Shown in pieces: positions 14,657 through 30,538 of a stretch of DNA of 64,000 nt. Origin of the DNA: Rhodospirillales bacterium (GTDB lineage: Bacteria > Pseudomonadota > Alphaproteobacteria > Reyranellales > Reyranellaceae); the NCBI GenBank assembly GCA_016185145.1, contig JACPOB010000061.1, positions 1-64,000 on the forward strand, read 5' to 3'. The position numbers and the translations under genes were made by a program. The notes beneath the pieces are model-generated. The model saw only the letters and a list, made by a program, of their open reading frames with translations, made no database searches and was not told the DNA's origin. The stretch's first letter is position 1, and each line of letters opens with the position of its first letter.

Positions 14657-14678
14657 CCGGTCGCCCAATCTTGAGGCG

Positions 14679-15767: not shown

Positions 15768-15786
15768 TATTTGCGAAATGCAATGG
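15768..15786. promoter_or_regulatory. Degenerate MarR-type site upstream of the MarR gene
   Basis: TATTTGC-GAAAT-GCAATGG matches one arm of the inverted motif TATTTGT-N5-ACAAATA found before both Rieske operons, with a weak second arm. It lies about 120 bp before the MarR start and could be the autoregulatory site. The rest of 15671-15905 shows nothing else clear. Confidence 0.4.
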
Positions 15787-15905
15787 TCAGGTCGGTCGGC
15801 GGCCTGTGACGTGAGGGTTCCCGCAGGCCCGGAGCCGGGGTGCCGCCCGCCAAGCTTGCCCGCGCCCATCGACCTGTCGTATCCCAATGCACCCAAGGAG
15901 GGGCG

Positions 15906-16454
15906 GTGAAGCAGACAATGGCCGTCAAAGGCGAAGCCGCGACCCAGGAAGACGAGAGCGCGCGGGACGACGCCGGCATCCGTCTCGACCTCAAGCATCG
16001 CTCGTTCTACCGGCTGTCGCTCCTCGCCACCCAGATCAACCGCGCCATCGCCAATGCCTATGTGAAGAACTTCGGGCGCCCCGCGCATGCCTGGCGGGTC
16101 GTCACTGTTTTAGGCGCTTTCGGGCCGCTCTCGGCCTCGCAGATCAACTCGCATACCACCCTGGAAATGGACAAGGTGACGCGCATCGTCGATCGCCTGG
16201 TCGAGCAGGGCCTGGCCACCCGGGACGAGGATCCGAACGATCGCCGCCGGGTCGTGATCGCTCTCTCGGCGCGTGGAAAGAGGGTCAACGCACAGATCGA
16301 GCAGATGATCGCCGACATGGAGCGCGAGTTCCTCATCGTGCTCAGCCGGAACGAGCGTGAATCCCTCTATTCGCTGCTCGACCGCCTGCAGGCGCGCGCC
16401 GACCAGCTGTTCGGGGAAAAGCGGCTCTGGAGTCCCACTTCCGGCCGCGCCTGA
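15906..16454 (+). CDS. MarR-family transcriptional regulator
   Basis: The 182-residue protein has a winged helix (FGPLSASQINSHTTLEMDKVTRIVDRLVEQGLATRDEDPNDRRRVVIALSARGKRV) with the D-x-R-x5-L wing typical of MarR proteins and helical dimerisation ends. MarR regulators usually repress nearby catabolic or efflux genes until a phenolic or acid ligand binds. GTG 15906 is chosen because AAGGAG lies five bases upstream; ATG 15918 is the alternative. It heads the oxygenase island, and the inverted motif upstream of both oxygenase operons is its likely operator. Confidence 0.88.
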   Translation: MKQTMAVKGEAATQEDESARDDAGIRLDLKHRSFYRLSLLATQINRAIANAYVKNFGRPAHAWRVVTVLGAFGPLSASQINSHTTLEMDKVTRIVDRLVEQGLATRDEDPNDRRRVVIALSARGKRVNAQIEQMIADMEREFLIVLSRNERESLYSLLDRLQARADQLFGEKRLWSPTSGRA

Positions 16455-16470
16455 CGTCGCGCTATTTACT

Positions 16471-16489
16471 TATTTGTCTTTCACAAATA
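16471..16489. promoter_or_regulatory. MarR-type operator upstream of the first Rieske operon
   Basis: TATTTGT and ACAAATA form a perfect 7-bp inverted repeat across CTTTC, 74 bp before the oxygenase start. The half-sites are identical to those at 19472-19490. The surrounding AT-rich bases could also hold the promoter. Confidence 0.75.
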
Positions 16490-16562
16490 TATTGCGCCGG
16501 TTGGTCGCGACTATCGCCTGTGGCTGTTGCCGGGCTGAAGCGCGCCGAACGGGAGACACGGC

Positions 16563-17846
16563 ATGCTGACCCATGAGCAGAACGAGAACCTGACCCGGGT
16601 GGGGCCCGGCACTCCTCTGGGACGTTTCCTCCGCCACTATTGGATTCCGGCCGCCAATCTCGAGGAGATCGCGATGCCGGGCGGCGCCCCCGTGCGCGTC
16701 GGCCTGCTCGGCGAGAAGCTGGTGGCGTTTCGCGACCCGTCCGGCAAGGTCGGGCTCATCGGAGAGTTCTGCCCGCATCGACGCGCCTCGCTCGCCTATG
16801 CCCGCAACGAGGTCGGCGGCCTGCGCTGCCTGTACCACGGCTGGAAGCTTTCGCCGGAGGGCCGCGTCGAGGAAACCCCGCCCGAGCCGCCGGGCAGCAA
16901 GCTCAAGGCCAATCTGAAGTGTCATGCCTATCCGGTGCGCGAGGCCGGCGGCATCCTGTGGACGTACATGGGCGATCCGGCGAAGCAGCCGCCGTTCCCG
17001 AAGTTCCCGTGGCTCGACCTGCCGCCGGCGCAGCTGCTGCCGGTCAAGATGTATCAGGATTGCAACTTCCTGCAGGGCCTCGAAGGCGACCTCGATCCCG
17101 CCCATCCCAACTACCTGCACCGAGACTTCGATGTCGATGCCGGCAAGAGCTGGGGGGGCGCCGGCTGGGAGTCGATTGCCCGCCTGATGTCCGACGGTGC
17201 ACCCGAGATCCTCTGTGAAGAGACGCCGTACCTCATGCGCGTCGGCGCCGTGCGCAAGACGAACGATCCGAAGAAGAATTACGTACGCACGACCGAGTGG
17301 ATCGCTCCGTTCTATTGCTACATCGCCACCGGGCCGCACGAGTCGCAGCTGTTCAAGGCGTGGCTGCCGATCGACGACGTCAGCTGCTACACCTACTACA
17401 TCCACTTCAATCCGAGCCGGCCACTCGACGTGCCGGCGACATACGCGAATTGGGGGCACAGGACCGAGAACGGCACCTATCGCACGGCCCATAGCGTCGA
17501 GAACATGCACCTGCAGGATCGTCAGCGCATGATCTCGGGCAACTTCTCCGGCATCGAAGGCGCCGCCATCCAGGACCGGGCGGTGCAGGAAAGCATGGGA
17601 GCGATCTGCGATCGCACGCAGGAGCATCTGGGCACCAGCGACAAGGCGGTGATCTTCTACCGGCGACTCATCCTGCGGAAGCTCGCGGAAATGGACGCCG
17701 GCAAGTCGCCGCCCGGGCTGGATCCGGCGCTCGACTTCAAGCATCGCACGGCGTCCTGGTATTCGCCGTCGGACGAGCCGTGGCAGGACGTGCTGCGCCA
17801 TCAGGAGCGATACGAGCGCGAGAACCCCCTGCCGGCGTCCGCGTGA
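16563..17846 (+). CDS. Rieske non-heme iron oxygenase, phthalate-dioxygenase-like alpha subunit
   Basis: The 427-residue protein has a Rieske [2Fe-2S] site C70-P-H72-R and C89-L-Y-H92-GW, and a mononuclear iron site D178xxH181xxxxH186 (EGDLDPAHPNYLHRD). It matches phthalate 4,5-dioxygenase/VanA-type single-subunit oxygenases, which hydroxylate or O-demethylate carboxylated aromatics with electrons from a reductase. Here ferredoxin and reductase follow at once (1-bp overlap, then 1-bp gap), which is unlike the fused FMN-reductase of classical phthalate oxygenases. The substrate is unknown. Confidence 0.9.
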   Translation: MLTHEQNENLTRVGPGTPLGRFLRHYWIPAANLEEIAMPGGAPVRVGLLGEKLVAFRDPSGKVGLIGEFCPHRRASLAYARNEVGGLRCLYHGWKLSPEGRVEETPPEPPGSKLKANLKCHAYPVREAGGILWTYMGDPAKQPPFPKFPWLDLPPAQLLPVKMYQDCNFLQGLEGDLDPAHPNYLHRDFDVDAGKSWGGAGWESIARLMSDGAPEILCEETPYLMRVGAVRKTNDPKKNYVRTTEWIAPFYCYIATGPHESQLFKAWLPIDDVSCYTYYIHFNPSRPLDVPATYANWGHRTENGTYRTAHSVENMHLQDRQRMISGNFSGIEGAAIQDRAVQESMGAICDRTQEHLGTSDKAVIFYRRLILRKLAEMDAGKSPPGLDPALDFKHRTASWYSPSDEPWQDVLRHQERYERENPLPASA

Positions 17847-18163
17847 TGGCGACGATCGTCTACGTGTCGCCCGATGATGTGCGCCACGAGGTCGAGGTGC
17901 CGGTCGGCATGACGGTGATGTCCGGCGCGCTGCAGAACAACGTGCCGGGAATCGATGCGGAATGCGGCGGCTGCCTGTCCTGCGCCACCTGTCACGTCTA
18001 TGTGGACGGCGGCGCCGACCTTCCACCGCCCAGCAAGGACGAGGCCGAGATGCTCGACGCCGTGGCGGCCAGTCGACGGCCCGAAAGCCGCCTGTCCTGT
18101 CAGATCGTCGTCACGCAGTCGATCGACCGGCTGATCGTGCGGATCCCGGAGACGCAGTCCTGA
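17846..18163 (+). CDS. [2Fe-2S] ferredoxin, adrenodoxin type
   Basis: This 105-residue ferredoxin carries cluster cysteines C40, C46, C49 and C85 (CGGCLSCATC and LSCQI), as in terpredoxin/putidaredoxin-type proteins. It shuttles electrons from the FAD reductase encoded next to one or both Rieske oxygenases. Its ATG overlaps the stop of the oxygenase gene (TGATG), so the three components are translationally coupled. Confidence 0.93.
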   Translation: MATIVYVSPDDVRHEVEVPVGMTVMSGALQNNVPGIDAECGGCLSCATCHVYVDGGADLPPPSKDEAEMLDAVAASRRPESRLSCQIVVTQSIDRLIVRIPETQS

Positions 18164-18164
18164 G

Positions 18165-19421
18165 ATGTCGGACGGATTGGTGATCGTCGGCGGCTCGTGT
18201 GCCGCGGTCCAGATCGCCGCGGCGGCGCGTCGGGCGGGGTACGCCGAGCCGATCAGGATGATCAGCGAGGAAGATGCGTTGCCGTACCAGCGGCCGCCGC
18301 TTTCCAAGGCCTTTCTCCTCGGCACCGCCGGCGAAAGGGACCTCCCTCTGCGCGGCGAGCCGTTCTACCGCGACCAGAGGATCGATCTGGAGCTGGGGGC
18401 GCGGGCCGAGGCCGTCGACCTGCGTTCGAGGGAGGTCGTGACTGCGCAAGGCCGCCGCCTTCGATTCGAGCGGCTCGCGCTCGCCGTCGGCGCACGGGCG
18501 CGAAAGCTCGACGTCCCCGGCGCGGACCATGCGGGCGTGTTCACGCTGCGTGACCTGTCCGATGCGGTCCGCTTGAAAGCCGCGCTCGCCGACGCCGAAA
18601 GCGTCGCGGTCGTCGGCGGCGGCTTCATCGGCCTCGAGGTGGCCGCTTCGGCCGCAAAGCTCGGCAAGCGGGTGACCGTGCTGGAAGCGCAGGACCGGCT
18701 GCTCGGCCGCACCTGCTCGCCGCTTCTTGCCGATTGGTTCCGGGACCTCCACGTCGGCCACGGCACGAGCGTCATGACCGGCGTCAACGTCGCCGCGTTG
18801 CGCGGGTCGGGCGGGTGCGTCCGATGGGTGGAGCTCGCGGACGGCCGGAAGGTCGCGGCCGACCTCGTCGTCGTCGGCGTGGGGGTCGCCCCGAACGACG
18901 AACTGGCGGCCCTTGCCGGCATCGACTGCGGCGACGGCATCGTCGTCGACCGCTTCGCCAAGACCTCGAACCCCATCGTCGTGGCGGCCGGCGACTGCAC
19001 GCGGTTTCCCTGTGCGTTCTCCGACGGGCTGCGGCGCATCGAATCGATACAAAACGCGACCGATCAAGCGCGGGCGGCGGCGGCGGCGGTGCTCGGGCGC
19101 GACGAGCCGCACCGGTCGCTCCCATGGTTCTGGTCCGATCAATACGATGCCAAGCTCCAGATGGCCGGCCTGTCGCAGGAACATGACGCCCATGTCGTCC
19201 GCGGCAGCCCCGCGTCGGGCAGGTTCTCCGTCTTCTACTACCGACGCCGCATGCTCATCGCGGTCGATTCGGTGAGCTGCCCGGCGGAGCACATGATCGT
19301 GCGCAAGCTGATCGCCGGACGGCTGTCGCCGACGCCGGCGCAGGCGAGCGACGTCGGCTTCGATCTGACGTCGCTGCTGCCCGCCGGCCCGTCTGCCACG
19401 GGGCACGTTCCGTCCGGCTGA
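18165..19421 (+). CDS. FAD-dependent ferredoxin reductase
   Basis: The 418-residue NAD(P)H:ferredoxin reductase belongs to the putidaredoxin reductase/BphA4 class. An N-terminal FAD site (VIVGGSCAAVQIA), the PYQRPPLSK segment, an NAD site (VAVVGGGFIGLEVA) and the AAGDCT second FAD motif are all present. It reduces the ferredoxin encoded one base upstream. As the only reductase in the island it probably serves the second oxygenase (19632-21406) as well, which has no electron-transfer genes of its own. Confidence 0.92.
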   Translation: MSDGLVIVGGSCAAVQIAAAARRAGYAEPIRMISEEDALPYQRPPLSKAFLLGTAGERDLPLRGEPFYRDQRIDLELGARAEAVDLRSREVVTAQGRRLRFERLALAVGARARKLDVPGADHAGVFTLRDLSDAVRLKAALADAESVAVVGGGFIGLEVAASAAKLGKRVTVLEAQDRLLGRTCSPLLADWFRDLHVGHGTSVMTGVNVAALRGSGGCVRWVELADGRKVAADLVVVGVGVAPNDELAALAGIDCGDGIVVDRFAKTSNPIVVAAGDCTRFPCAFSDGLRRIESIQNATDQARAAAAAVLGRDEPHRSLPWFWSDQYDAKLQMAGLSQEHDAHVVRGSPASGRFSVFYYRRRMLIAVDSVSCPAEHMIVRKLIAGRLSPTPAQASDVGFDLTSLLPAGPSATGHVPSG

Positions 19422-19471
19422 GACGGGTCGGCGGCGTGTCGATGGCTCGCCCGGCACCCTCGCCACGCCAT

Positions 19472-19490
19472 TATTTGTAATTTACAAATA
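19472..19490. promoter_or_regulatory. MarR-type operator upstream of the second Rieske operon
   Basis: TATTTGT and ACAAATA around AATTT form a perfect inverted repeat, identical in both arms to the site at 16471-16489. It lies 142-160 bp before the second oxygenase start. Confidence 0.75.
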
Positions 19491-19572
19491 TATAGTGCTA
19501 TGCGGGATCGCCGCTGTGGCATGCTTCGTGCCGCTTTGCACTCAGTAAAATAGCCATTTCTGCGAGGAGGCG

Positions 19573-19602
19573 TTGACTTATTGTGAACGTCGACTATTGT
19601 GA
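19573..19602 (+). promoter_or_regulatory. Probable sigma-70 promoter of the second Rieske operon
   Basis: TTGACT and TATTGT, 16 bp apart, fit -35 and -10 hexamers. The -10 lies about 30 bp before ATG 19632. TATTGTGA is repeated at 19579 and 19595 with a 16-bp period, so a regulator site may overlap the promoter. Confidence 0.5.
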
Positions 19603-19631
19603 TATACAAGAAATTGAGCAAGGGATGGGAG

Positions 19632-20912
19632 ATGGTTCGCGAGACCGCCCGCAAGGCTGAGGCGTCGATACGGATCGACGAGGCGCAAGGTCGCTTTCAG
19701 GTGGCCCGGGCAGCCTACCTCGACCCGGCCCTCTTCAAGGAAGAGATCGAAACGATCTTCTCGCGGTGCTGGCTGTTCGTCGGCCACGATTCGGAAATCC
19801 CCCAGGCGGGTGACTTCATCACGCGCAATATCGCGGGACGGCCGGTCATTTTCCTGCGCGACAAGGCCGGGAAGGTGCGCTGCTTTCTGAATGTCTGCCC
19901 CCATCGCGGTGCCCAGGTCACCCGGCAGCGACGCGGCAACGCGTCGAATTTCGTCTGCATGTATCATGGCTGGACATTTCAGAACACCGGAAGAGTCGTT
20001 GGAATCGCCGAGGCGGCGAACTACCAGAGCGGCTTCAACGCCGCCGGATGCAACGACCTGGTGGCGGTGCCGCGCTTCGACGAGTACCGCGGCCTGTGGT
20101 TCCTGAACTACGACGGCGGCGCCATCGGTCTCGTCGACTATCTCGCGGGGGCGCGAGAGCACATCGACATCGTGATGGACCAGGCCGAAGGCGGGATGAG
20201 GGTCATCGGCGAGGCGCTCGACTACAGCGCACGTGCCAACTGGAAACTCCTTGCCGAGAACAGCATGGATATCCTGCACGTGAACACGCTGCATCCGACC
20301 TATCTCGATCTCATCCGTACGAACTCCGCCGGCACCATGGTGCGCGGCAAGGTCGTCGGCGCGAGCGTCGACCTCGGCAACGGCCATTCCGTCGTCGAGC
20401 GCGAGGCTTCCTACGGCAGGCCGATCGCGCGCTGGATCCCGATCTGGGGCGAGGAGGCCAGGATCGAGATCGAGCGAATCCATGCCGGCCTGGTGGAGCG
20501 GTTCGGCGCCGAGCGGGCCCATCGAATGGCTCACAACACGCGTAACCTGCTCATCTTCCCGAGCCTGGTGATCAACGACATCATGTCGGTGACGCTGCGC
20601 ACGTTCCAGCCCGTGGCGACGGATTTCATGGAGATCAGCGCCTGGGCGATCGCTCCCGCCGAGGAGGCCGGCAAGCCGGCGATGAAGCGTCGCTTGACCA
20701 ACTTCCTCGAGTTTCTCGGGCCGGGCGGGTTCGCGACGCCCGACGACATCGAGGCTTTCGAATCCTGCCAGCGGGCCTACGGCGCGGCGCGGGAGGCGCC
20801 CTGGAACGATCTTTCCAAGGGATTTGGCCAGGAGCCGAGCGCCACTGACGAGTTGCCGCAGCGTGTGTTCTGGCTCGCCTGGCGCGACTGGCTATCGGGG
20901 CGCACGCCATGA
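19632..20912 (+). CDS. Rieske aromatic-ring-hydroxylating dioxygenase, alpha subunit
   Basis: This 426-residue large subunit has its Rieske site at C89-P-H91-RG and C109-M-Y-H112-GW and its mononuclear iron site at D213xxH216xxxxH221 (SMDILHVNTLHP). It is of the alpha-beta class (biphenyl/benzoate/salicylate-type oxygenases) and is paired with a beta subunit gene overlapping its stop. It introduces molecular oxygen into an aromatic ring, often giving a cis-diol; an SDR downstream could re-aromatise this. ATG 19632 is used rather than an upstream GTG at 19599, because the GTG overlaps the predicted promoter. Confidence 0.9.
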   Translation: MVRETARKAEASIRIDEAQGRFQVARAAYLDPALFKEEIETIFSRCWLFVGHDSEIPQAGDFITRNIAGRPVIFLRDKAGKVRCFLNVCPHRGAQVTRQRRGNASNFVCMYHGWTFQNTGRVVGIAEAANYQSGFNAAGCNDLVAVPRFDEYRGLWFLNYDGGAIGLVDYLAGAREHIDIVMDQAEGGMRVIGEALDYSARANWKLLAENSMDILHVNTLHPTYLDLIRTNSAGTMVRGKVVGASVDLGNGHSVVEREASYGRPIARWIPIWGEEARIEIERIHAGLVERFGAERAHRMAHNTRNLLIFPSLVINDIMSVTLRTFQPVATDFMEISAWAIAPAEEAGKPAMKRRLTNFLEFLGPGGFATPDDIEAFESCQRAYGAAREAPWNDLSKGFGQEPSATDELPQRVFWLAWRDWLSGRTP

Positions 20913-21406
20913 GCGGCCGGCTCGACGCCATCGCGCGCACGGAGGTGGAGGACTTCCTGATCCACGAAGCCGCGCTGCTCAACGAGTGGCGGCTCGAGGA
21001 GTGGGTGGCGCTTTTTGCCGAGGAGGGGACCTATCTGGTGCCCAACGTTGCCGGCGATCCGTACGCTTCGCCGGACTCCACGCTCTACCTCATAGCCGAC
21101 GATCACTATCACCTGGTCGAGCGAGTCAAGAGACTGGGGAAGAAGACGGCGCATGCCGAGCAGCCGCGGTCGGCCACCAGGCGACTGGTGAGCAATGTCA
21201 GGATCCTGGCGCGCAGCGTCGAGGAGGTCCGGGTCGAAGCCAGCTTCGTGACCTATCGCGTCAATCAAGGCGTCACCGACATCTATTTCGGGCGCCACGA
21301 ATACGTGCTGGTCGAGCGTGGCGATGCACTGCGCATCCTGGAGAAACGGACGATTCTCGATACCGACGCATTGCGGCCCCAGGGCCGGCTCTCGATCATC
21401 GTGTGA
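20909..21406 (+). CDS. Aromatic-ring-hydroxylating dioxygenase, beta subunit
   Basis: The 165-residue small subunit of the SnoaL-like/NTF2 fold has the usual opening (EVEDFLIHEAALLNEWRLEEWVALFAEEGTYLVP) and the SATRRLVSNVRI and VTDIYFGRHEYVLVE strands. It has a structural role in the alpha3beta3 dioxygenase and no active-site residues. It is coupled to the alpha gene by an ATGA overlap. Confidence 0.92.
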   Translation: MSGRLDAIARTEVEDFLIHEAALLNEWRLEEWVALFAEEGTYLVPNVAGDPYASPDSTLYLIADDHYHLVERVKRLGKKTAHAEQPRSATRRLVSNVRILARSVEEVRVEASFVTYRVNQGVTDIYFGRHEYVLVERGDALRILEKRTILDTDALRPQGRLSIIV

Positions 21407-21413
21407 GGCGCGC

Positions 21414-23135
21414 ATGATGCAAGGCCCCTTCCAGAACCGCACGGTCGGCGAGGCGCTCCTGAGACTTCTTGCGTCGCGCGGCATCGAGCACGTCTTCGCG
21501 AACGCGGGCACGGACTTCGCTCCGCTCATCGAGGCATGGGTCCGCGGCGCCATGACCGGCGTGCCCATGCCGAAGCCGATCACGGCACCCCACGAGAACG
21601 TCGCCATCGCCATGGCGCTCGGCCATTGGATGGTCAGCGGCCGCGCCCAGGCCGTGATGGTGCATGTGAACGTCGGAACGGCCAATACGATCTGCGGCCT
21701 GCTGAATGCCGCACGGATGAATGCGCCGATCCTGATGATGGCCGGGCGCACGCCGATCACCGAAACCGGGCTGGAGGGCAGCCGGAACATCCACATCCAC
21801 TGGACACAGGAGATGTTCGACCAGGCCGGGCTCGTGCGTGAGGCGGTCAAGTGGGACTATGAGCTGCGCACCGGCGTGCAAGTGGAAACCGTCGTCGACC
21901 GCGCGCTTGCGGTGTCCGGCACCGCACCGGCCGGACCGGTCTACCTGATGTTGCCGCGCGAAGTGCTCGCCGCGCCGCTGGGGGCGCTCGCCTACCAGGA
22001 GCCGACGCGCCTCGCCATAGCATCCCTCCCGCGCCCCGATCCGGCGGCGATAGAGGAGCTTGCGAGGCTCTTCCACGCCGCAGAGCGGCCCGTGATCGTC
22101 ACGAGTCGCATGGGCTTCGAAGAGGGCGGCGTGGCGGCCCTCGGCTGCTTTGCGGATCGCTTCGCCGTCCCCGTGGTGCAGTACGTCCCGCAATGCCTAT
22201 GCCTGCCGGACAGCCACCCGATGCATGTCGGCTACGACCCCGCGCCATGGCTGCGCGAGGCCGATCTGGTTGTCGTGCTGGAATGCGCCGTTCCCTGGAT
22301 CCCCGTCCAGGTGCAGCCGCCGGCGTCCGCGAAGGTCGTGCATGCCGGCGTCGATCCCTTGTACCAGCGCTTGCCGATTCGCGGGTTCGCCTGCGATCTC
22401 GCGATCACCGCGACCGCCGGGTCGACGGTGCGAGCGGTCGATGCTGCGCTCTCCGGGGTCGAGGGCGGAATGAAAGGACGCATCGCCGCCCGACGGGCAC
22501 GGGTCGCCGCCTTCAGGGCCGAACGGCGACGCAGGCGCGAGGCGCTGCTGGCCGACGTGGGCGACCGCGCGACGAATCACCCGGCCTGGATCACGCACTG
22601 CATCGAAGAGGCCTGTGGCGAGGATGCCATCCTGTTGCGGGAGGCGCCGCAGTTCTCGCTCGATTACCTGCGCCGGGAGCACGAGGGAACATTCTTCTCG
22701 GCGGGTGCCGCCGGAGGATTGGGCTGGGGCCTGGGCGCCGCGATCGGGGCGAAACTCGCGGCTCCCGAGCGGTTGGTGGCGACCGTCGTGGGTGACGGCT
22801 CGTACATGTTCGGTACGCCGGTTGCGGCCCACTACGCCGCGCTCGAGCAGAAAGCCCCGTTCCTGACCGTGATCATGGACAATCAAAGATGGAACGAGGT
22901 CGGCGCAGCGACGCGCCATCTATATCCGGAGGGCGAGGCGGCGCGAAATCCGGCGCTCGAGCCCCTGACCTACTTCGACAAGTCGCTGAAGCTGGAAAAG
23001 ACGGTGGAGACCGTGGGCGGGTGGTCCGAGCGGGTCACCGCCGCCGCCGCGCTTCCGAAGGCGATGGAGCGGGCGGTGCGGGCCGTCAAGGAAGAAGGCC
23101 GCCAAGCCGTGCTCGATGTCGTCTGCGCGGGGTAA
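21414..23135 (+). CDS. Thiamine-diphosphate-dependent enzyme of the acetolactate synthase/benzoylformate decarboxylase superfamily
   Basis: The 573-residue protein has the activating glutamate E61 in APHENVA. The C-terminal ThDP-binding motif is GDGSYMFG with DNQRWNE in place of the common NN. The central domain resembles the acetolactate synthase fold but lacks an obvious FAD segment. Such enzymes decarboxylate 2-keto acids or cleave or form carbon-carbon bonds. It follows the dioxygenase beta gene by 7 bp, so it probably works on a ring-cleavage or side-chain keto acid of the same pathway. The reaction is not assignable from sequence. Confidence 0.82.
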   Translation: MMQGPFQNRTVGEALLRLLASRGIEHVFANAGTDFAPLIEAWVRGAMTGVPMPKPITAPHENVAIAMALGHWMVSGRAQAVMVHVNVGTANTICGLLNAARMNAPILMMAGRTPITETGLEGSRNIHIHWTQEMFDQAGLVREAVKWDYELRTGVQVETVVDRALAVSGTAPAGPVYLMLPREVLAAPLGALAYQEPTRLAIASLPRPDPAAIEELARLFHAAERPVIVTSRMGFEEGGVAALGCFADRFAVPVVQYVPQCLCLPDSHPMHVGYDPAPWLREADLVVVLECAVPWIPVQVQPPASAKVVHAGVDPLYQRLPIRGFACDLAITATAGSTVRAVDAALSGVEGGMKGRIAARRARVAAFRAERRRRREALLADVGDRATNHPAWITHCIEEACGEDAILLREAPQFSLDYLRREHEGTFFSAGAAGGLGWGLGAAIGAKLAAPERLVATVVGDGSYMFGTPVAAHYAALEQKAPFLTVIMDNQRWNEVGAATRHLYPEGEAARNPALEPLTYFDKSLKLEKTVETVGGWSERVTAAAALPKAMERAVRAVKEEGRQAVLDVVCAG

Positions 23136-23138
23136 GCG

Positions 23139-24125
23139 ATGTCACCTTCTACAACCATCCTCGGCGGTGTAGCCGTTCTCGCCGTCGCGACCATCCTGTC
23201 GCTCGGGCAGGTCGCTCTCGCGCAGCCGTATCCGTCGCAGCCGATCAAGCTGGTCAACGGATTCCCGCCCGGAGGCGGCCCCGACACACTGGCCCGACAG
23301 CTTGCCGATGCGCTGACCAAGCGGCTGGGGGTGAGCGTCATCGTCGACAATCGAGCCGGCGCGACGGGCACGATCGGCGCCGCGGCGGTCGCGCGAGCGG
23401 CACCGGACGGCTACACGCTTCTGTTCGGCGTGGCCGCGAACCTGGTGGTCGGCCCGGCGACCTTGAAGAACGTCCCGTACGATCCCGTCGGGTCTTTCAC
23501 GCCCGTCATTGAAATCGCTCGCGGCCCGTATGTCCTGCTCGCATCGACGAAGCTTGCCGTGCGTTCGGTGCCGGATCTGATCGAAGAGGCGCGGCGCCAA
23601 CCCGGCAAGCTCAACTATGGTTCGGTCGGCCCCGGGAGTCCGCATCAGTACGCCGCCGAGCTGCTCAAGAAGCTCGCCGACATCGATATCGTGCATGTGC
23701 CCTACAGGGGCGGGGGACCGGCCTATATCGGCTTTCACGCCGGCGACATCCAATTGATGTTCGACAGCATGCCCGGCCCGGAGGCCGCCCTGCAGGCGGG
23801 CACGGTGCGTCCGCTGGCGGTGACCGGCAACCGGCGGATCGGCACTTTGCCCGACGTTCCGACATTCAGCGAAGTCGGACTGGCGGGCATGGACATCAGC
23901 TTCATGTTCGGCGTGATGGCGCCGGCGAACACGCCGCAGCCGATCATCGCCAAGCTGAACGCCGCCATCACCGATGCGCTGCGAGATCCCGACATTCGGG
24001 CAACGCTCGCCCGCCAGGCCGTCGAGCCCTCGCCCGGTTCGCCCGAAGAATTCGGGGCTCTGGTCGCCAGGGAGTTCAAGCGCTGGACGGAGATCGTCGA
24101 GCAGACCGGCTTCCGCCCCGAGTAG
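23139..24125 (+). CDS. Bug/TctC-family periplasmic solute receptor
   Basis: The 328-residue receptor has a signal peptide ending ALAQ and the Bug opening PYPSQPIKLVNGFPPGGGPDT, followed by NRAGATGTIGAAAVARAAPDGYTLLFG and VPYRGGGPAYIGF. It lies 3 bp after the ThDP gene, within the catabolic operon. It probably captures the pathway substrate in the periplasm or acts as a sensor. No membrane partner (TctA/TctB) is present nearby. Confidence 0.9.
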   Translation: MSPSTTILGGVAVLAVATILSLGQVALAQPYPSQPIKLVNGFPPGGGPDTLARQLADALTKRLGVSVIVDNRAGATGTIGAAAVARAAPDGYTLLFGVAANLVVGPATLKNVPYDPVGSFTPVIEIARGPYVLLASTKLAVRSVPDLIEEARRQPGKLNYGSVGPGSPHQYAAELLKKLADIDIVHVPYRGGGPAYIGFHAGDIQLMFDSMPGPEAALQAGTVRPLAVTGNRRIGTLPDVPTFSEVGLAGMDISFMFGVMAPANTPQPIIAKLNAAITDALRDPDIRATLARQAVEPSPGSPEEFGALVAREFKRWTEIVEQTGFRPE

Positions 24126-24154
24126 GAGCAGCCCACACCAAGGAAGGAGCGGCA

Positions 24155-24982
24155 ATGAAAGGCATCAAGGGTAGAACCGTAATCGTCACCGGCGGGGCAA
24201 ACGGGCTGGGCGCCGGGCTCGTGAGCGCGTTTGCCGCGGCGGGCGCCAACGTGGTTTCGGCCGACATCGACGAGGCCCGAGGCGCCGCGGTCGTCGCCGG
24301 TCTCGGCGACAATACCGCCTTTCATCGCACGGACCTGCAAAGCGACGTCGACATCGAGCGACTCGTCGGCTTCACGGCCGAGAGATTCGGCGGCATCGAC
24401 TTCCTGGTGTGCGCCGCCTGCACCTACGCCGACGCGGGAGGAGAAGCAGACCGCGCCGCCTGGCGGACGGCATTCGACATCAACCTGTTCGGTCATATCG
24501 TGCTCATGCGCATGGCCTTGCCGCACCTGCGCAAGTCCGAGTGGCCTTCGATCGTGAACTTCTCCAGCGAAGCGGCCCATGTCGGCCTGTCGGCGCGCTG
24601 GGTCTATCCGGCGACCAAGGCCGCGATAGAACAGGTCACCCGCAGCCAGGCGATGGATCTGGCCAAGGACGGGATCAGGGTCAACTCGGTCATGCCCGGC
24701 TGGACAGCGAAGCCGTGGCAGGAGACCGCCCCGCAGGAAGTCAAGGATCAGTACGCCTACTGGGCCAATCGTCTGCACATGCTGGGTCGGCTGGGCCGGA
24801 TCGACGAGGTCGCCGATGCGGTGCTCTTCCTGTGCTCGGAGCACGCCGGTTTCATGACGGGCAGCTGTCTGCATGTCGACGGAGGCCACAGCGCGATGGG
24901 GCCGCAGGGCCGCGACGTCGTGCTGCCGACGACCTTGCGCAAGGGGACGAAGGCGGCCCAGCCTTCGAAGGTGACTTCATGA
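24155..24982 (+). CDS. SDR-family oxidoreductase
   Basis: The 275-residue classical SDR has the cofactor motif TGGANGLGAG, the active-site serine in VNFSSEAA, and the catalytic pair YPATK. It is thus a competent NAD(P)-dependent dehydrogenase. Position after a ring-hydroxylating dioxygenase suggests a cis-dihydrodiol dehydrogenase, but sequence alone supports only the family. GGAAGGAG lies upstream. The stop overlaps the start of the next receptor gene (ATGA). Confidence 0.88.
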   Translation: MKGIKGRTVIVTGGANGLGAGLVSAFAAAGANVVSADIDEARGAAVVAGLGDNTAFHRTDLQSDVDIERLVGFTAERFGGIDFLVCAACTYADAGGEADRAAWRTAFDINLFGHIVLMRMALPHLRKSEWPSIVNFSSEAAHVGLSARWVYPATKAAIEQVTRSQAMDLAKDGIRVNSVMPGWTAKPWQETAPQEVKDQYAYWANRLHMLGRLGRIDEVADAVLFLCSEHAGFMTGSCLHVDGGHSAMGPQGRDVVLPTTLRKGTKAAQPSKVTS

Positions 24983-25950
24983 TGAAGCGTCGACTCGTCG
25001 TTCCCGCGCTCCTGGCTCTCGCCTCGGCATGTGCGGTCCCGTCCGCCAAGGCTCAGAGCTATCCGTCGCGCCCGATCACGCTGGTCGTGCCGTTCCCGGC
25101 CGGAGGGTCCGTCGACGTGATGGCGAGGGAGATCGCGGCCGGGCTCGGTCGGCAGCTCAAGCAGGTCGTCATCGTCGACAACAAGGCCGGCGCCGGGGGA
25201 ACGATCGGAAGCGCCGCCGTCGCCAACGCCGCGCCGGACGGCTACACGCTCCTGTTCGGGACGACGAGCGCGCTCGCGGTCGCTCCCGCCCTGTACAGCA
25301 AGGTGGCCTACGATCCACTGAAGTCGTTCGTGCCGATCATCGAGGCCACGCGCGGCCCGTTCGTGATCTCGGTCCGGCCTACGCTGCCGGTGCGCGACCT
25401 GAAGGAATTGATCGAGTACGCGAAGAAGAACCCCGGCAAGCTCAACGGCGGCTCGGCGGGACTGGGAAGCGTGCATCACCTCTCGCTCGAGATGTTCAAG
25501 CAAGCCGCCGGCGTGGATATCGTGCATGTCCCCTTCAAGGGCGGCGCGCCGGCGTGGGCCGCGCTCCTGAGCGAGGACATCGACATCGTCTTCGACAGCA
25601 TGCCGGGTCCGCTGCTGTTTCCGGGGCGGGTCAAGCCGCTGGCCGTGGCAGGTCCCAGCCGACTGGCCAAGTTGCCCGACGTGCCGACATTTGCCGAGGG
25701 CGGACTGCCGGACGTCTCGGCCGTCTTCTTCTGGGCAATACTCGCGCCTGCGGGAACGCCGCCGGCGATCGTGAAGACGCTCAATGCCGCCCTGAACGAC
25801 GTGCTCCGCGATCCCAAGGTCAAGGAGGCATTCGTCAATCAAAGCATGGAGACCACGCCCGGCACAGCCGAGGAGATCGCCCGCTTCATGGCCGACGACA
25901 TCCCGCGGTGGCGGGCTGCCGTCGAAAGAGCCGGTCTCAAGCAGGAGTAA
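24979..25950 (+). CDS. Bug/TctC-family periplasmic solute receptor
   Basis: The 323-residue receptor has a signal peptide (MMKRRLVVPALLALASACAVPSAKA by eye) and the core SYPSRPITLVVPFPAGGSVDVM, then NKAGAGGTIGSAAVANAAPDGYTLLFG and VPFKGGAPAWAALL. It is clearly paralogous to the receptor at 23139-24125. Having two receptors in one operon suggests uptake or sensing of two related ligands. The ATGA overlap with the SDR gene shows co-translation. Confidence 0.9.
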   Translation: MMKRRLVVPALLALASACAVPSAKAQSYPSRPITLVVPFPAGGSVDVMAREIAAGLGRQLKQVVIVDNKAGAGGTIGSAAVANAAPDGYTLLFGTTSALAVAPALYSKVAYDPLKSFVPIIEATRGPFVISVRPTLPVRDLKELIEYAKKNPGKLNGGSAGLGSVHHLSLEMFKQAAGVDIVHVPFKGGAPAWAALLSEDIDIVFDSMPGPLLFPGRVKPLAVAGPSRLAKLPDVPTFAEGGLPDVSAVFFWAILAPAGTPPAIVKTLNAALNDVLRDPKVKEAFVNQSMETTPGTAEEIARFMADDIPRWRAAVERAGLKQE

Positions 25951-26005
25951 TGCGCCCGGCGGCGAGGCCGGGCGGGAATGGTGATGACGAGGCGGAGAAG
26001 CGAGG

Positions 26006-26980
26006 ATGCTTCAATACAGTTACCGGCCGAACTTCCCGCCGACGCGACGGTCGCGCACCGCCGCTGATCAGGCCTGGGTCGACTACGATCCGATCGTCGA
26101 TCGTCCGCCCTTGAGATGGCCGAACGACGCCAATCTCGCGGTGCTGGTCTGTCCGGCGATCCTCGACTACGAGTTCGTTCCGCCGGAGGATCCCTGGCTC
26201 AATCCGTGGGCGCGCACGCCCGCGCCGGACGTGCTCGGCTTCAGTCGCCAGGAGTTCGGCAACCGGGTGGGTTTCTGGCGCGTTCTCAAGCTGCTCGACA
26301 GGTTCGCGATCCGTCCCAGCGCGGTCGTGAACGCCGATGCGCTCGTGCGCTACCCCGACATCGTCGCAGCGATCAAGGAACGCATGTGGGATGTCCTCGG
26401 GCACGGGATGTCGAACACGCGATTCATCTACGATTACGACGAAGCCGCCGAACGCGCATACTACCGCATCATGCTCGACCGGGTGGAAACGCTCACCGGC
26501 GTGCGCATGAAGGGGATGGGCGGCTCCGGCCCCCAGGCCGGCACCGAGAACACCTGCGATCTGCTGGCGGAAGCCGGCTTTCTCTATCAGGGCGACTGGT
26601 ACATGGACGATCAACCGTTCCCGTTGCGCGTGCGCAGCGGACGATTGATCGCCATGCCGTATCCGGCCGACATGATGAACGACGTCACCGCGCTGGCTTG
26701 GGCCGAGGCCGACGCATATTGCGACGCCGTCAAGGCGCAGTTCGATCGCCTGTATCGCGAGGGGGAGACCAGCGGCCGCGTCCTGACCCTCGCCCTGCAT
26801 CCCGCCCTCATCGGCCAACCGCAGCGCATCGGGCAGCTCGAGCGCATCCTCGACTACATCACATCGTTCCCGAAGATCTGGCAGGCGACCGGTGCCGAGA
26901 TCGCGGAGCACTACATGGCCAACTACCATGACGACGCGCTGAGGCGTCTCGACCGACGCCGGGGGGCGGGATTGCCATGA
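26006..26980 (+). CDS. NodB-fold hydrolase, PuuE (allantoinase)-like
   Basis: This 324-residue protein would usually be labelled polysaccharide deacetylase. The metal-site pattern is not the chitin-deacetylase HxxxH: it has GHGMSNTRF after DVL and a late LHPALIGQPQRI, both as in PuuE-type allantoinases and cyclic-imide or ureide hydrolases. It has no signal peptide, so it is cytoplasmic, which also speaks against a polysaccharide substrate. It follows a Bug receptor by 55 bp and overlaps the start of a second NodB gene. A C-N hydrolase acting on a cyclic amide is my best inference. Confidence 0.8.
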   Translation: MLQYSYRPNFPPTRRSRTAADQAWVDYDPIVDRPPLRWPNDANLAVLVCPAILDYEFVPPEDPWLNPWARTPAPDVLGFSRQEFGNRVGFWRVLKLLDRFAIRPSAVVNADALVRYPDIVAAIKERMWDVLGHGMSNTRFIYDYDEAAERAYYRIMLDRVETLTGVRMKGMGGSGPQAGTENTCDLLAEAGFLYQGDWYMDDQPFPLRVRSGRLIAMPYPADMMNDVTALAWAEADAYCDAVKAQFDRLYREGETSGRVLTLALHPALIGQPQRIGQLERILDYITSFPKIWQATGAEIAEHYMANYHDDALRRLDRRRGAGLP

Positions 26981-27903
26981 CGGCGGCCGAGACCGATCAC
27001 GACCATTACGCGCGCGATACGTTCGCCAGGCGCTCCCGATCGACATGGCCCAACGGCGCCCAGGCGGCGTGCGCCATCGTGGTCAATGCCGAATACTACG
27101 AGATGCAGCCTCCCGCCGGTGCCTTCATCCCGCCGAACGTGCCGGGCGGGTTCGGGCGCGGTCCGTACCCGGACTTTCGCAACTACTCCGCGCGCGCCTA
27201 TGGCAATCGTGTCGGCATCTTCCGCATCTTCGCGGCACTGGCCGAATACGAGCTGAAGGCGAGCGTCGCGCTCGATTCGTTGACGGCGGAACTGTGTCCG
27301 CAGCTTGTCGCCCACATCGCGCGACACGGCTTCGACGTCGTTGCCCACGGGCAGAGCGCGACCAGGGTGATCTCGGCGCATATGACGGAGGAGCAGGAAC
27401 GGGACTATATCCGCCAAACGCTCGAGACCATCCGGGCGCGGACGGGAACGATGCCGCAGGGATGGCACGGTCCCGAGTACGGCGAGTCGCGGCGCACGCC
27501 GGGCCTGCTGGCGATGCTGGGCGTCAAGTACGTCCTCGATTGGCCCAACGACGAGCAGCCGATCGACATGACGACGCCGCACGGGCCGCTGGTGTCGATC
27601 CCGATGCTGATCGACCTCGATGACGTCCATGCGCAGTTCCATCGCAAGATCTCCTCGGCTCGCTGGCGGATGTGCGTGGAGGATGCCGTCGAGCAGATCG
27701 TCGCGGACGGGCAGGACGGCGTCGCCCGCCTGCTGGTCGTCAACCTGCACCCGTGGCTGAGCGGCCACCCCTGCAGGATCGGCGACGTTGAAGCGCTGTT
27801 CAGAATGCTCGCCAAGCGGAGGGACATCTGGCTGGCGAGCACGGACGAGATCGCCGCGCATTGGACCTCACGATCGGCGGAAGGCACGACAGCCCGTGGT
27901 TGA
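26977..27903 (+). CDS. NodB-fold hydrolase, PuuE (allantoinase)-like, second copy
   Basis: The 308-residue cytoplasmic NodB-fold protein has AHGQSATRVISAHMTEEQERDYI and VNLHPWLSGHPCRIGDVE, the same PuuE-type motifs as its neighbour. The two are only moderately alike, so they are probably not a recent duplication. They may form a hetero-oligomer or catalyse successive hydrolyses. Their ATGA overlap shows coupled translation. The next gene is an amidase, which strengthens the view that this part of the island splits C-N bonds. Confidence 0.8.
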   Translation: MTAAETDHDHYARDTFARRSRSTWPNGAQAACAIVVNAEYYEMQPPAGAFIPPNVPGGFGRGPYPDFRNYSARAYGNRVGIFRIFAALAEYELKASVALDSLTAELCPQLVAHIARHGFDVVAHGQSATRVISAHMTEEQERDYIRQTLETIRARTGTMPQGWHGPEYGESRRTPGLLAMLGVKYVLDWPNDEQPIDMTTPHGPLVSIPMLIDLDDVHAQFHRKISSARWRMCVEDAVEQIVADGQDGVARLLVVNLHPWLSGHPCRIGDVEALFRMLAKRRDIWLASTDEIAAHWTSRSAEGTTARG

Positions 27904-29359
27904 CACAGAAAGCGTCCTGCTGAGCGGCTCCATCAGGGAAATAGGAGCGCTCTATCGCTCTCGACGCCTGTCGGTGGTCGAAGCGGTCGAATGGTATCTC
28001 GCCCGGATCGAGCGTTTCCGGCGGCTCAATGCCGTACGCGAAATCTCGCCGCGCGCCCTGCAGCAGGCCAAGCTTGCCGACGACGCCTTGGCCGCCGGCA
28101 GGGAACTCGACCCCCTGCATGGAATTCCCGTTCTCCTGAAAGACAACATACTCGCAAGCGAGATGAAGGCCTGTGCCGGCGCGCGTGCCCTCGGCCAGTT
28201 CGCGCCCCGACGCGATGCGGGCATCGTCGCGAGACTGCGCGCCGCCGGCTGCATCGTGCTCGGCAAGACGAACATGACGGAATTCGCGGATTACGTGTCG
28301 GACGTGATGCCGTCGGAGTTCAGCAGCGCCGGTGGCGTGGTCGAGAATCCGCACGGCATTCGCTACGACCGCGGGCAGGGCTCGAGCGTCGGCTCGGCGG
28401 CGGCCGTGGCGGCGTCTCTCGCCCCACTGGCGATCGGCAGCGAAACCCAGAACTCGATTCAGGCGCCAGCATGCTGGTCTTCGGTCGTGGGCTACAAGCC
28501 GAGCGTGGGGCGTGTCAGCCGTGCCGGCGTCGTGCCGCTGGTTCCCAGCCAGGATTCGCCGGGTCCCCTTGCACGGTGCGTGGCCGACGCGGCGCTGGTC
28601 GGCGCGCGGCTGGCGGGCGCCGATCCGCGCGACAGCTGGACATTGACCTATGCCCAATGTGCCGCGCCGGATGCGGACAAGGCGGTCGATCTGGCCGGCC
28701 TGCGCATCGGCGTTCCGCGGCGGCAGGTCGCCGCGCGCGCGGAATTCGACGGCGTCATGCCGCTGTTCGATGCGGTTCTTTCGAGGCTCGCGTCAGGTGG
28801 TGCCACGATCGTCGATCCCTGCGATCTGCCGTCGGCCGAGCAACTGCAGGAAGTGCGCTCCTCGGTCTTCCGTACGGAGTTCAAGGCTGCGCTCAATGCG
28901 TTCCTCGAGGATTGCAACGGGCCCGGCGGCATGCACTGCCTGGCAGACATCATCGCCTGGAACGACCGACACCCCGATGCAATACCCTACGGGCAGCCCC
29001 TGCTGATTGCCGCGCAGGAGACGAACGGGCTGGCCGATGCGCTCTATCGTGCGGACCGTGCGCGCGACGTCGCACTGAGCCTCGACGCGGGAATTGCCGC
29101 GACCCTGAGCATGCACGACGTGGACGTGCTGGTCGCCCCGATGGGGGCGGGCGCAAAATGCACCGGGAAGGCAGGCGCGCCGGTTCTCGCGGTCCCGGCG
29201 GGCAAGCACGCCTCTGGAGCGCCGTTCGGCATCACGTTGTTCTGCAAGCCCGGCGGTGACGCTACGCTGCTGGCAATCGGCGCCGCGATCGAGCGCACGC
29301 TGGGCGGCCGGGACCTGCCGGCGATGCAAAGCGCACCACGTTCGGACCGTGGGTCCTGA
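27896..29359 (+). CDS. Amidase signature family hydrolase
   Basis: The 487-residue amidase has its catalytic lysine in VLLKDNI, cis-serine in GSSVGSAAA, and nucleophile serine in GSETQNSIQAPA, where the usual GGS is QNS. It starts at a GTG overlapping the previous gene by 8 bp. It ends the plus-strand catabolic run and could release ammonia from an open-chain amide made by the NodB-type hydrolases. Substrate unknown. The unusual QNS may reflect a narrower or different specificity. Confidence 0.87.
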   Translation: MVDTESVLLSGSIREIGALYRSRRLSVVEAVEWYLARIERFRRLNAVREISPRALQQAKLADDALAAGRELDPLHGIPVLLKDNILASEMKACAGARALGQFAPRRDAGIVARLRAAGCIVLGKTNMTEFADYVSDVMPSEFSSAGGVVENPHGIRYDRGQGSSVGSAAAVAASLAPLAIGSETQNSIQAPACWSSVVGYKPSVGRVSRAGVVPLVPSQDSPGPLARCVADAALVGARLAGADPRDSWTLTYAQCAAPDADKAVDLAGLRIGVPRRQVAARAEFDGVMPLFDAVLSRLASGGATIVDPCDLPSAEQLQEVRSSVFRTEFKAALNAFLEDCNGPGGMHCLADIIAWNDRHPDAIPYGQPLLIAAQETNGLADALYRADRARDVALSLDAGIAATLSMHDVDVLVAPMGAGAKCTGKAGAPVLAVPAGKHASGAPFGITLFCKPGGDATLLAIGAAIERTLGGRDLPAMQSAPRSDRGS

Positions 29360-29463
29360 TCGCCGGCGATCTGGCTGGAATTCATCCTCGAAGCGCTTGC
29401 CGCCGCGCCCTCCCTGACGAGGTGCGCCCGATCTGCTGGTCGAAAGCGGCCCGCTGAGGGGCT

Positions 29464-29504
29464 TTGACTTGCCGATTTTCATTGTCCTAATGTCATAACA
29501 ATAG
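29464..29504 (+). promoter_or_regulatory. Promoter/operator region before the ABC transporter
   Basis: TTGACT at 29464 and a weak TAATGT at 29488 could be a promoter. ATTGT and ACAAT (29481-29502) flank it as an inverted repeat and TGTCATAACA lies inside. The GntR/UTRA regulator encoded at the end of the operon is a candidate binder. The rest of 29360-29551 shows nothing more. Confidence 0.4.
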
Positions 29505-29551
29505 AAGAGCCGGCGCGCCCTGCGGCGGTCCCATAGCCCGGGAGGGAACCC

Positions 29552-30538
29552 ATGAAGGCTTTCAAGGCCTTTGCTCGTACGTGTGCGCTCGCCTGCGCCG
29601 GCCTGACGTGGATGGCGACGGCGTCGCGCGCCGAGGACATCGTCGTCACGCACTACGGTTCGCTGCTCTACGGCGTGCCTTATGCCATCGCCCTGGAGAA
29701 GGGCTGGTTCAAGGAAGCCGGAGTCGACGTCAGCGGCATCCTGACCTCCAAGGGCGGCGGCACGTCGGTGCGCAACATGATGGCGGGCGACACGCTCTAT
29801 GCCGAAGTGGCGTTGCCGGCGGCGCTCAGCGCCATCAAGGAAGGCTTCAACATCAAGATCCTGAGCGGCGGCACCGACGGCCGCAGCAGCTTCTGGGTGA
29901 CCCGCGTCGGCGAGGCGATCGACAAGCCGGCCGACCTCAAGGGCAAGCGCTTCGTCTATTCGCGGCCGAAGTCGGTGAGCGAGAGCGTGACGCTGGCGGC
30001 GCTCAATTCCTGGAACGTGCCCGTCGCCGACGTGAAGATGATCGCGATCGGCGATTTCGGCGCCGGCCTGACCGCGCTCGAGCACAACAAGGTCGACGTC
30101 GCGATCATCCCCGAGCCGATCTACTCCCAGAAGGAGAAGGCCGGCGTGAAGTACAAGATCATTCCGTGGCTCGACGAGAAGCTGCCGGCCTATAGCCAGA
30201 CCGTCGCCATCGCCACCGACGAGACCATCGCCAAGCGTCCCGAGAAGTTGCGGGCGGTGATCGAGGCGCGCCGCAAGGGCGTCGAGTTCCTCTATGCCAA
30301 CCCGAAGGAAGCGGCCGCCATCCTGGCCAAGGCCTACAACCTGCCGCCCGACGTCGCCGCCAACGCGCTGAACAACATCATCAAGATGAATCCGACTTGG
30401 TGGAGCCGCGGCGAGCTCAGGCAACCGCTGATGGAGGCAATGGCCGAGGCCCTGGGTTCGGTCGGCGCCCTGCAGCTTCCGATCAACTGGAAGGCGGCCA
30501 TCCAGCCGGGCTTCGAGCCGGCGGCGAAGACGCAGTGA
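29552..30538 (+). CDS. ABC transporter substrate-binding protein, NitT/TauT type
   Basis: The 328-residue periplasmic protein has a signal peptide ending SRAE and the NMT1/SsuA-like fold: HYGSLLYGVPYAIALEKGWFKEAGVDV, GGGTSVRNMMAGD, and a hinge region VAIIPEPIYSQKEKAG. These proteins bind small acids, sulfonates or pyrimidine-like compounds. It is first of a four-gene transporter set followed by a GntR regulator. GGGAGG precedes the ATG. The ligand is unknown. Confidence 0.9.
   Translation: MKAFKAFARTCALACAGLTWMATASRAEDIVVTHYGSLLYGVPYAIALEKGWFKEAGVDVSGILTSKGGGTSVRNMMAGDTLYAEVALPAALSAIKEGFNIKILSGGTDGRSSFWVTRVGEAIDKPADLKGKRFVYSRPKSVSESVTLAALNSWNVPVADVKMIAIGDFGAGLTALEHNKVDVAIIPEPIYSQKEKAGVKYKIIPWLDEKLPAYSQTVAIATDETIAKRPEKLRAVIEARRKGVEFLYANPKEAAAILAKAYNLPPDVAANALNNIIKMNPTWWSRGELRQPLMEAMAEALGSVGALQLPINWKAAIQPGFEPAAKTQ

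Follow-up and report, generated by a model that had tools for sequence, protein, structure and literature searches.

The 64,000-nucleotide stretch of contig JACPOB010000061.1 analysed here (the window), from a bacterium of the alphaproteobacterial family Reyranellaceae (assembly GCA_016185145.1), carries at 15646–29431 an island of thirteen genes. They encode a MarR-family regulator, a phthalate-family Rieske oxygenase (RO1) with a ferredoxin and a reductase, the alpha and beta subunits of a second Rieske oxygenase (RO2a and RO2b), a thiamine diphosphate (ThDP)-dependent enzyme, a short-chain dehydrogenase/reductase (SDR), two Bug/TctC solute-binding proteins (Bug1 and Bug2), two tandem PuuE-like proteins (PuuE1 and PuuE2) and an amidase. 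On balance, we favour the view that the thirteen genes form a single catabolic unit, gained by horizontal transfer and controlled by MarR, whose substrate is a ring compound containing nitrogen and resembling a cyclic imide, a ureide or an amide. That the genes behave as one unit joining oxygenases with C–N hydrolases is supported by the boundaries of the insertion, by the joint occurrence of its core in other genomes and by a palindrome common to the promoters. The combination points to an undescribed pathway: a first-pass annotation made from the sequence knew of no operon with this exact set, and full-text searches of the open-licence literature likewise found no description of one.

Boundaries and probable acquisition of the island

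The thirteen genes (15918–29359) are all open frames on the + strand. Family scans recovered there the enzyme classes named in the first-pass annotation, with the ferredoxin and Bug2 recognised from their translations, and no ring-cleavage dioxygenase was found among the thirteen island genes, as had been stated.

Alignment with two congeners, G010 (contig C92) and G038 (contig C106), by dc-megablast stopped at 15645 and restarted at 29432. In both genomes about 0.58 kb with a GNAT-like open reading frame (recognised by eye) replaces 15646–29431, between a GFA-like gene on the left and an NMT1-type binding protein on the right. The flanking DNA is about 90–93% identical to that of the two congeners over much of its length and about 80% identical in the final left kilobase. 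Since both genomes bridge the two flanks with only about 0.58 kb between them, 15646–29431 is a discrete 13.8-kb insertion that runs from the MarR gene to the amidase and has its right end just past the latter; gene order agrees with the alignments, whose ends define those of the island to within some tens of bases. The left boundary is informed by G010 and G038 only; two further congeners, G005 and G046, share just the downstream operon (in G046 with its LeuCD genes unmatched). The span of 16563–29359 given by the first-pass annotation was thus right in its gene set and too short on the left, where the MarR gene (15918–16454) had been omitted.

The best match to RO2a outside this genome reached 52% identity among 65 genomes of the genus, and the best match to PuuE1 45% among 75 genomes of the family. 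Such low identities fit a gain in this genome rather than losses elsewhere, and the island was apparently acquired horizontally as one piece. Its GC content (0.668) does not differ from that of the flanks (0.666), with a slight difference at third positions (0.843 versus 0.884). We found no tRNA gene in the 64-kb window, no transposase or integrase among the thirteen island genes and no Rfam match across 14000–34000; the longest word common to both ends has 10 bases and is not evidence of a junction repeat.

A conserved core in four relatives

A scan for RO1 in the genome_contigs collection (84,980 species) yielded 83 stretches encoding a relative, of which 80 loci were kept. Four loci, all alphaproteobacterial (L047, L048, L049 and L050), encode an RO1 that is 68–81% identical to that of the window; the next full-length match was at 45%, and one piece of 172 residues at 53% (L124). 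All four also carry PuuE1 (56–80%), PuuE2 (52–68%) and the amidase (57–73%). RO1, PuuE1, PuuE2 and the amidase are therefore the conserved core, and because this core recurs in four other genomes, the gene set is not a chance neighbourhood. A search of other genomes for the set, as proposed by the first-pass annotation, was thus successful for these four genes. Homologous islands that degrade a known simple aromatic, which would have spoken against its proposal, did not come to light, as judged from the literature rather than from assays.

The MarR gene, identified by its Pfam MarR match, has orthologues at 65–70% identity in L048, L049 and L050, and the contig of the remaining relative starts 267 bp before RO1. 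L050, a Hyphomicrobiales metagenome-assembled genome (MAG), carries on the same contig, part of which is the neighbouring stretch L144, homologues of RO2a (61%), RO2b (57%) and SDR (59%) in another gene order, and a second MarR gene (39%). RO2 and SDR are hence an optional second module, present in two of the five loci, whereas the ThDP gene and both Bug genes are confined to the island copy of the window. Other SDRs are present in L047 and L049, and L048 encodes two Bug proteins at 33–34% identity. Three of the four genomes have ThDP homologues at 45–48% in other contexts, and we claim no orthologue among them. Many neighbouring genes in the relatives were named by eye from their translations. 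The neighbourhoods of RO1-type genes at 45% identity or less (five loci and three plasmid regions) indicated no substrate.

A palindrome common to the promoters

A search of chosen promoter regions revealed a palindrome of the pattern TATTTGT-N5-ACAAATA. One copy, TATTTGTCTTTCACAAATA, lies at 16471–16489 and begins 92 bp before the start codon of RO1; the other, TATTTGTAATTTACAAATA, lies before RO2 at 19472–19490. They are the only two exact sites in the 7.77-Mb genome, which has no others at up to two mismatches, and the reversed control gave none. Within the window, two matches at up to three mismatches compare with 0.08 expected from shuffles. At the same threshold, L047 and L048 have three sites each, L049 four and the contig of L050 and L144 ten, with shuffle means of 0.08, 0.10, 0.05 and 0.43, respectively; none of 100 shuffles reached the count in any of them. 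The 76 other RO1-type loci, taken as controls, held four sites in 1.31 Mb; most of them have a higher GC content than L050, a difference for which the shuffles allow.

A position weight matrix (PWM) was trained on sites with up to three mismatches, which it also lists, so that the independent test is the number of sites that the four relatives hold by mismatch count. PWM sites precede RO1 in all five loci and PuuE1 in three (L047, L049 and the L050 contig). They also precede RO2 in the window and, weakly, in L144 (score 12.2), the two loci with this oxygenase. Further sites stand before a flavin monooxygenase (L049 and the L050 contig), a TauD gene (L048) and transporters (L047, L048, L049 and L144), and a weak candidate operator lies before the MarR gene of the window (15768–15786, score 11.7). 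Only one of the 28 listed sites falls inside a gene. By sequence, then, a MarR gene stands next to its putative targets and a palindrome is common to their promoters, and from the position of the gene and the shape of the site we infer that the MarR protein binds the palindromes. The two copies in the genome, together with the variants in the relatives, support one regulated pathway and a regulon that can be tested. In L050, the putative regulon of the relative also takes in the flavin monooxygenase, which is RutA/SfnG-like, and a flavin-reductase-like gene, both recognised by eye (L050:6259–7380 and 9068–9598).

The PuuE pair and the amidase

PuuE1 (26006–26980), PuuE2 (26977–27903) and the amidase (27896–29359, with a GTG start) are encoded in overlapping frames, by 4 bp between the first two and by 8 bp between the last two. 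Two listed open reading frames, 25029–26114 and 26116–26931, are in incorrect frames and match nothing in Pfam; what this stretch encodes is Bug2 (24979–25950) and PuuE1. PuuE1, a PuuE-like amidohydrolase, stands at the first place of the tandem (position A) and PuuE2 at the second (position B). Both match TIGR03212 weakly, and PuuE1 has no Pfam match. The closest solved relative of PuuE1 is the PuuE allantoinase 3cl6, by sequence and by fold search, and 3cl6 is among the closest solved relatives of PuuE2 as well. Fold searches with models of the two proteins matched 3cl6, 3rxz and 3qbu; as these models are modest (mean predicted local distance difference test score, pLDDT, of 65.5 for PuuE1 and 68.3 for PuuE2), we take from them only the fold family. 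The amidase matches the amidase signature (PF01425) and has a peptide amidase as its nearest solved relative.

A hydrolase of the PuuE fold is thus encoded together with an amide hydrolase at 26006–29359, as expected for an imide hydrolase and a half-amidase of the HxnM/HxnN type. The fungal enzyme HxnN, a FAAH-like amide hydrolase, is an amidase-signature enzyme too. In nicotinate breakdown by Aspergillus nidulans, HxnM, a cyclic imide hydrolase related to PuuE and HP0310, is followed by HxnN, according to the available part of the account (PMC9304392). The pairing of a PuuE-type hydrolase with an amide hydrolase is the likeness to this system as far as that part describes it, and by analogy HxnM/HxnN would be a precedent for PuuE and amidase as an imide-opening pair. 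Unlike the island with its two tandem PuuE-like genes, the fungus has one imidase gene, and no Rieske enzyme figures in the portion of the account at hand (PMC9304392).

Proteins at positions A and B of PuuE pairs separate in the tree with a support of 89/83 and in 86% of bootstrap trees. The tree has several long branches, and only this split was used; its Alicycliphilus row is a lone gene according to the annotation. Both PuuE genes occur together in 28 of 29 other loci of the host family (L015–L043), and the remaining one is truncated by the end of its contig. On plasmids, all 10 annotated regions with a PuuE pair have an amidase, an isochorismatase-family or cysteine hydrolase, or an asparaginase within two genes of it; the regions were picked from the tops of lists rather than at random and include the near-copies JE1 and TomTYG65; L184, with a single PuuE gene, and L155, without annotation, were left out. 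Among 13 proteins at position A, H133 and H265 are kept in all, whereas at the matching places of position B the first histidine is kept in 9 of 13, the second in 8 and both in 6; the window and all four relatives keep both. This retention at position A and partial loss at position B suggest that two genes encode one PuuE enzyme and that in some lineages the second protein may give up an active site of its own, if the catalytic role that we assume for these residues holds.

A narrower proposal would make the system a new MarR regulon for an N-heterocycle, with the Rieske oxygenase and the PuuE pair as its core and the pair acting as an obligate two-subunit imide or ureide hydrolase. The split between positions A and B, the joint presence in 28 of 29 loci and the plasmid amidases of several families argue for two subunits. 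Against them stands the L050 contig, where about 8 kb separate PuuE1 from PuuE2. We regard this proposal as possible and hold it more tentatively than that of the unit itself.

PuuE pairs also have other neighbours. The host's own further PuuE1–PuuE2 pair (L214:4948–10550) adjoins divergent xanthine-dehydrogenase-like genes, named by eye, and lies near a branched-chain-type ATP-binding cassette (ABC) transporter; the same holds for L215 of the host genus, and the arrangement may represent a purine or other N-heterocycle route. In another genus of the family (L216), the pair adjoins hydantoinase-like genes, again by eye. In two near-identical sphingomonad plasmid stretches (L153:8039–12705 and L190:7001–11667), it stands between an isochorismatase-type hydrolase and genes for LeuC, LeuD and a phosphoenolpyruvate (PEP) mutase, which would fit a path from an imide over an alkylmaleate to malate cleavage.

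The Rieske oxygenases and their partners

RO1 (16563–17846) is of the LigXa_C type (PF19301 and PF00355). The next two genes encode a [2Fe–2S] ferredoxin with a putidaredoxin-like cysteine pattern (17846–18163, from the translation only) and an NAD(P)H:ferredoxin reductase (18165–19421; Pyr_redox_2 and Reductase_C). The motifs C-X-H...C-X2-H and D-X2-H-X4-H can be read in the translations of both RO1 and RO2, and we take them to be the active-site motifs of Rieske oxygenases. The nearest solved relatives of RO1 are 9ina, 7fjl and 7fhr; 7fjl is presumably the phthalate dioxygenase (PDO) of Comamonas testosteroni KF1.

The first-pass annotation had called RO1 phthalate-type. Its family membership stands, but a phthalate-like role is weakened by the variability of one of the two arginines that bind the carboxylates of phthalate in PDO KF1, R207 and R244, as given in the available part of its description (PMC12445078). 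RO1 belongs to the same Rieske family as this enzyme and the isophthalate dioxygenase and, as far as the same source allows the comparison, keeps the places of R244 (R242 in RO1) and I256 (I254), which are invariant in seven of seven aligned RO1-type proteins; unlike PDO, its clade has no conserved R207 place. Across the five core loci this place is occupied by R, N, V, V and H. The arginine pair is complete in the RO1 of the window, which has R there, and is not conserved in the clade. The clade is, judged by these residues, not a set of phthalate dioxygenases, since the R207 place varies. The same residues bear on the possibility that hydrolysis comes first and turns an aromatic imide or amide, similar to phthalimide, into a dicarboxylate, which RO1 would go on to oxidise in the manner of PDO. 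The family of RO1, the two invariant residues and the arginine in the window would suit such a route; the varied R207 place would not, nor does a set of phthalate-operon partners stand beside RO1 in the relatives, as far as gene lists compiled mostly by eye go. We therefore think it unlikely.

RO2a (19599–20912, with a start possibly at 19632; Ring_hydroxyl_A) and RO2b (20909–21406; Ring_hydroxyl_B) form a BenA-like ring-hydroxylating oxygenase. RO2 is closest to models of the BenA type, yet far under their cut-offs: RO2a scored 274.3 bits with TIGR03229 (BenA) against a cut-off of 780.95, and so does not qualify as a benzoate 1,2-dioxygenase. There follow the ThDP enzyme of the decarboxylase/lyase family (21414–23135), Bug1 (23139–24125; PF03401), the SDR (24155–24982; Pfam), a candidate dihydrodiol dehydrogenase for RO2, and Bug2, recognised from its translation and from DNA repeats with Bug1. 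The ThDP enzyme, a single chain of 573 residues, scored 663 bits with the NCBIfam model PRK08327 (cut-off 456; scanned from 21318) and has benzoylformate decarboxylases as its nearest solved relatives. The SDR directly follows RO2b in L144 and also in a paralogous cluster that the window's genome carries on contig C10 (59–60% identity), and the ThDP and Bug1 genes of the window therefore look inserted between RO2b and SDR. A decarboxylation step, as suggested by the first-pass annotation, retains its enzyme here and rests on a gene that is not conserved, the ThDP gene being confined to this island copy.

The cluster on C10 (L045:1143–3735, genome G000) repeats RO2a, RO2b and SDR at 60, 64 and 60% identity. 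Beside it lie a dienelactone-hydrolase-like gene and transporter genes, named by eye, and a reductase at 40%; a further RO2a/RO2b pair at 50–51% stands about 12 kb away (L044:9521–11260). The contig also holds two operator-like sites with three mismatches.

Proposed pathway and points against it

In the reading that we favour, the MarR protein would occupy the palindromes as a repressor and let go once it has bound the substrate or an intermediate. RO1, supplied by the ferredoxin and the reductase, would hydroxylate or dealkylate the substrate, the PuuE pair would open a ring at a C(O)–N bond, and ammonia would be freed from the half-amide by the amidase, as it is by HxnN after HxnM in fungal nicotinate breakdown. 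RO2 and the SDR, using the same electron carriers, may dihydroxylate the remaining ring and rearomatise the product, and the ThDP enzyme of this island copy may remove a carboxylate like that of a 2-oxo acid. A catechol-type product would be handed to enzymes of the host for ring cleavage; its genome has intradiol dioxygenase domains at four places on three contigs. This listing implies no particular sequence of reactions. The first-pass annotation had suggested that hydrolysis of a perhaps imide- or amide-bearing aromatic precedes its oxidation; its route for a nitrogen-containing substrate stands as one unit of oxygenases and C–N hydrolases, but nothing in the data fixes the order.

A number of observations weigh against this reading. 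The palindrome was picked after the window had been viewed, so that the relatives are its sole independent test, and one of 100 shuffles of the window also gave two sites at up to three mismatches. At three mismatches the genome holds 18 sites versus 9 in the control, and the looser sites are thus mostly noise; before PuuE1 of L048 there is no site at the score used. The genomes of the three relatives other than L050 have matches to RO2a at only 34–45%, so RO2 might serve a second substrate, and none of the four relatives' loci has an orthologue of the ThDP enzyme, Bug1 or Bug2. These loci hold instead genes outside the set of the island, namely a RutA/SfnG-like flavin monooxygenase (L048 and L049 by scan, L050 by eye), an arylformamidase-like hydrolase (L048 and L049) and TauD-type oxygenases (L048, one of two scanned); for the flavin monooxygenase of L049, a search at 1e-40, run without a positive control, gave no match in the genome of the window. 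Finally, although 3cl6 is the closest solved relative of PuuE1, the TIGR03212 scores of PuuE1 (141.9 bits) and PuuE2 (90.4 bits) lie far under the allantoinase cut-off of 424.6. Neither qualifies as an allantoinase, and the reaction of the pair is consequently guessed from the family.

The distribution of RO2 raises the question of whether the island holds two pathways, with RO1, the PuuE pair and the amidase acting on an N-compound, RO2 and SDR (perhaps with the ThDP and Bug proteins) on an unrelated benzoate-like acid, and only the electron carriers and the regulator site in common. RO2 is missing near the core in three of four relatives, and around the RO2 and SDR genes on C10 no PuuE or amidase homologue was detected within the 40 kb read of this 79-kb contig. 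Both operons of the window, however, carry the genome's only two exact palindromes, and the Hyphomicrobiales MAG has both modules on one contig, rearranged and with palindromes throughout, although its RO2 site is weak. Two separate pathways thus seem to us rather less probable than one.

Comparison with other degradation systems

Indole-acetate degradation was considered as a candidate because of the combination of MarR, Rieske and SDR genes. The iad locus for auxin degradation is under MarR-type control. In the available parts of its descriptions in Variovorax, it comprises acyl-CoA synthetase, thiolase, alcohol dehydrogenase and formamidase (PMC12633357, PMC10374108). The Rieske alpha/beta oxygenase is common to island and locus as far as these parts go, and the four enzymes are absent from the thirteen island genes, for which we rejected the candidate.

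The lum pathway for lumichrome catabolism in Nocardioides simplex is the described system closest in its chemistry. It employs the hydrolases LumH/I/M, the ThDP decarboxylase LumK/L and the Rieske system LumA–D, and its cluster further has the xanthine oxidase LumJ, the extradiol enzyme LumE and the P450 LumU (PMC12746152). Compared by enzyme class only, both have C–N hydrolases, a ThDP enzyme and, together with its ferredoxin and reductase, a Rieske alpha/beta oxygenase; the island differs from lum in its additional Rieske oxygenase, the tandem of PuuE genes, the SDR, the Bug proteins and the lack of any ring-cleavage enzyme. The island is not the lum pathway. It might still serve a flavin- or lumichrome-like (pteridine or quinoxaline) route of ring hydrolysis, ThDP decarboxylation and Rieske attack, with PuuE in place of LumH. 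The reaction types of lum are indeed the same, and xanthine-dehydrogenase-like genes stand, by eye, elsewhere in the genome beside the host's own PuuE pair (L214, contig C22). None of the island genes, however, encodes an enzyme of the LumJ (xanthine oxidase), LumE (extradiol) or LumU (P450) type, for which the rest of the genome was not searched; LumK/L is split into 20 and 23 kDa, as opposed to the single ThDP chain here, and the latter is not conserved in the relatives. We consider this route quite improbable.

Flanking regions

Downstream of the island, 29552–36848 is a resident operon with an NMT1-type ABC transporter, a GntR regulator, a PEP-mutase-like lyase and a LeuC/LeuD-like hydratase, which is conserved in part of the host genus and adjoins the island by position only. 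One could imagine that the unit extends into it, with an imide converted to an alkylmaleate that the LeuCD-like hydratase and the PEP-mutase-family lyase (33932–36848) would process further: in four of the ten plasmid regions only a few genes separate LeuC/LeuD from the PuuE pair, and three of these four also have a PEP-mutase-family gene. PEP-mutase matches, however, were found in 33 of 65 genomes of the genus, that of the window included, and the order NMT1-ABC-GntR-PEPM-LeuCD occurs without the island in G010, G038 and G005 (and in G046, with LeuCD unmatched beside it). These genes are resident in the genus and hence not part of the island. We give the extension very little credence, and maleimide breakdown by way of them was rejected for the window.

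Within the operon, two 38-nt arms, 89% complementary and 15 nt apart, lie at the end of the ABC gene before the first permease gene (31366–31456). On the other side of the island, 8026–9255 holds DNA resembling a second acyl-CoA dehydrogenase, full-length in G010 and G038 and here a fragment of 202 residues, possibly a decayed gene.

Conclusion

What had been a list of enzyme classes becomes a testable regulon, with five genomes, one operator and one conserved core. If the two-gene reading of the PuuE pair is true, this widespread tandem, often labelled polysaccharide deacetylase, would probably be an imide or ureide hydrolase misnamed by annotation. If the unit is what we propose, it would offer a way into the breakdown of an N-ring compound by alphaproteobacteria.

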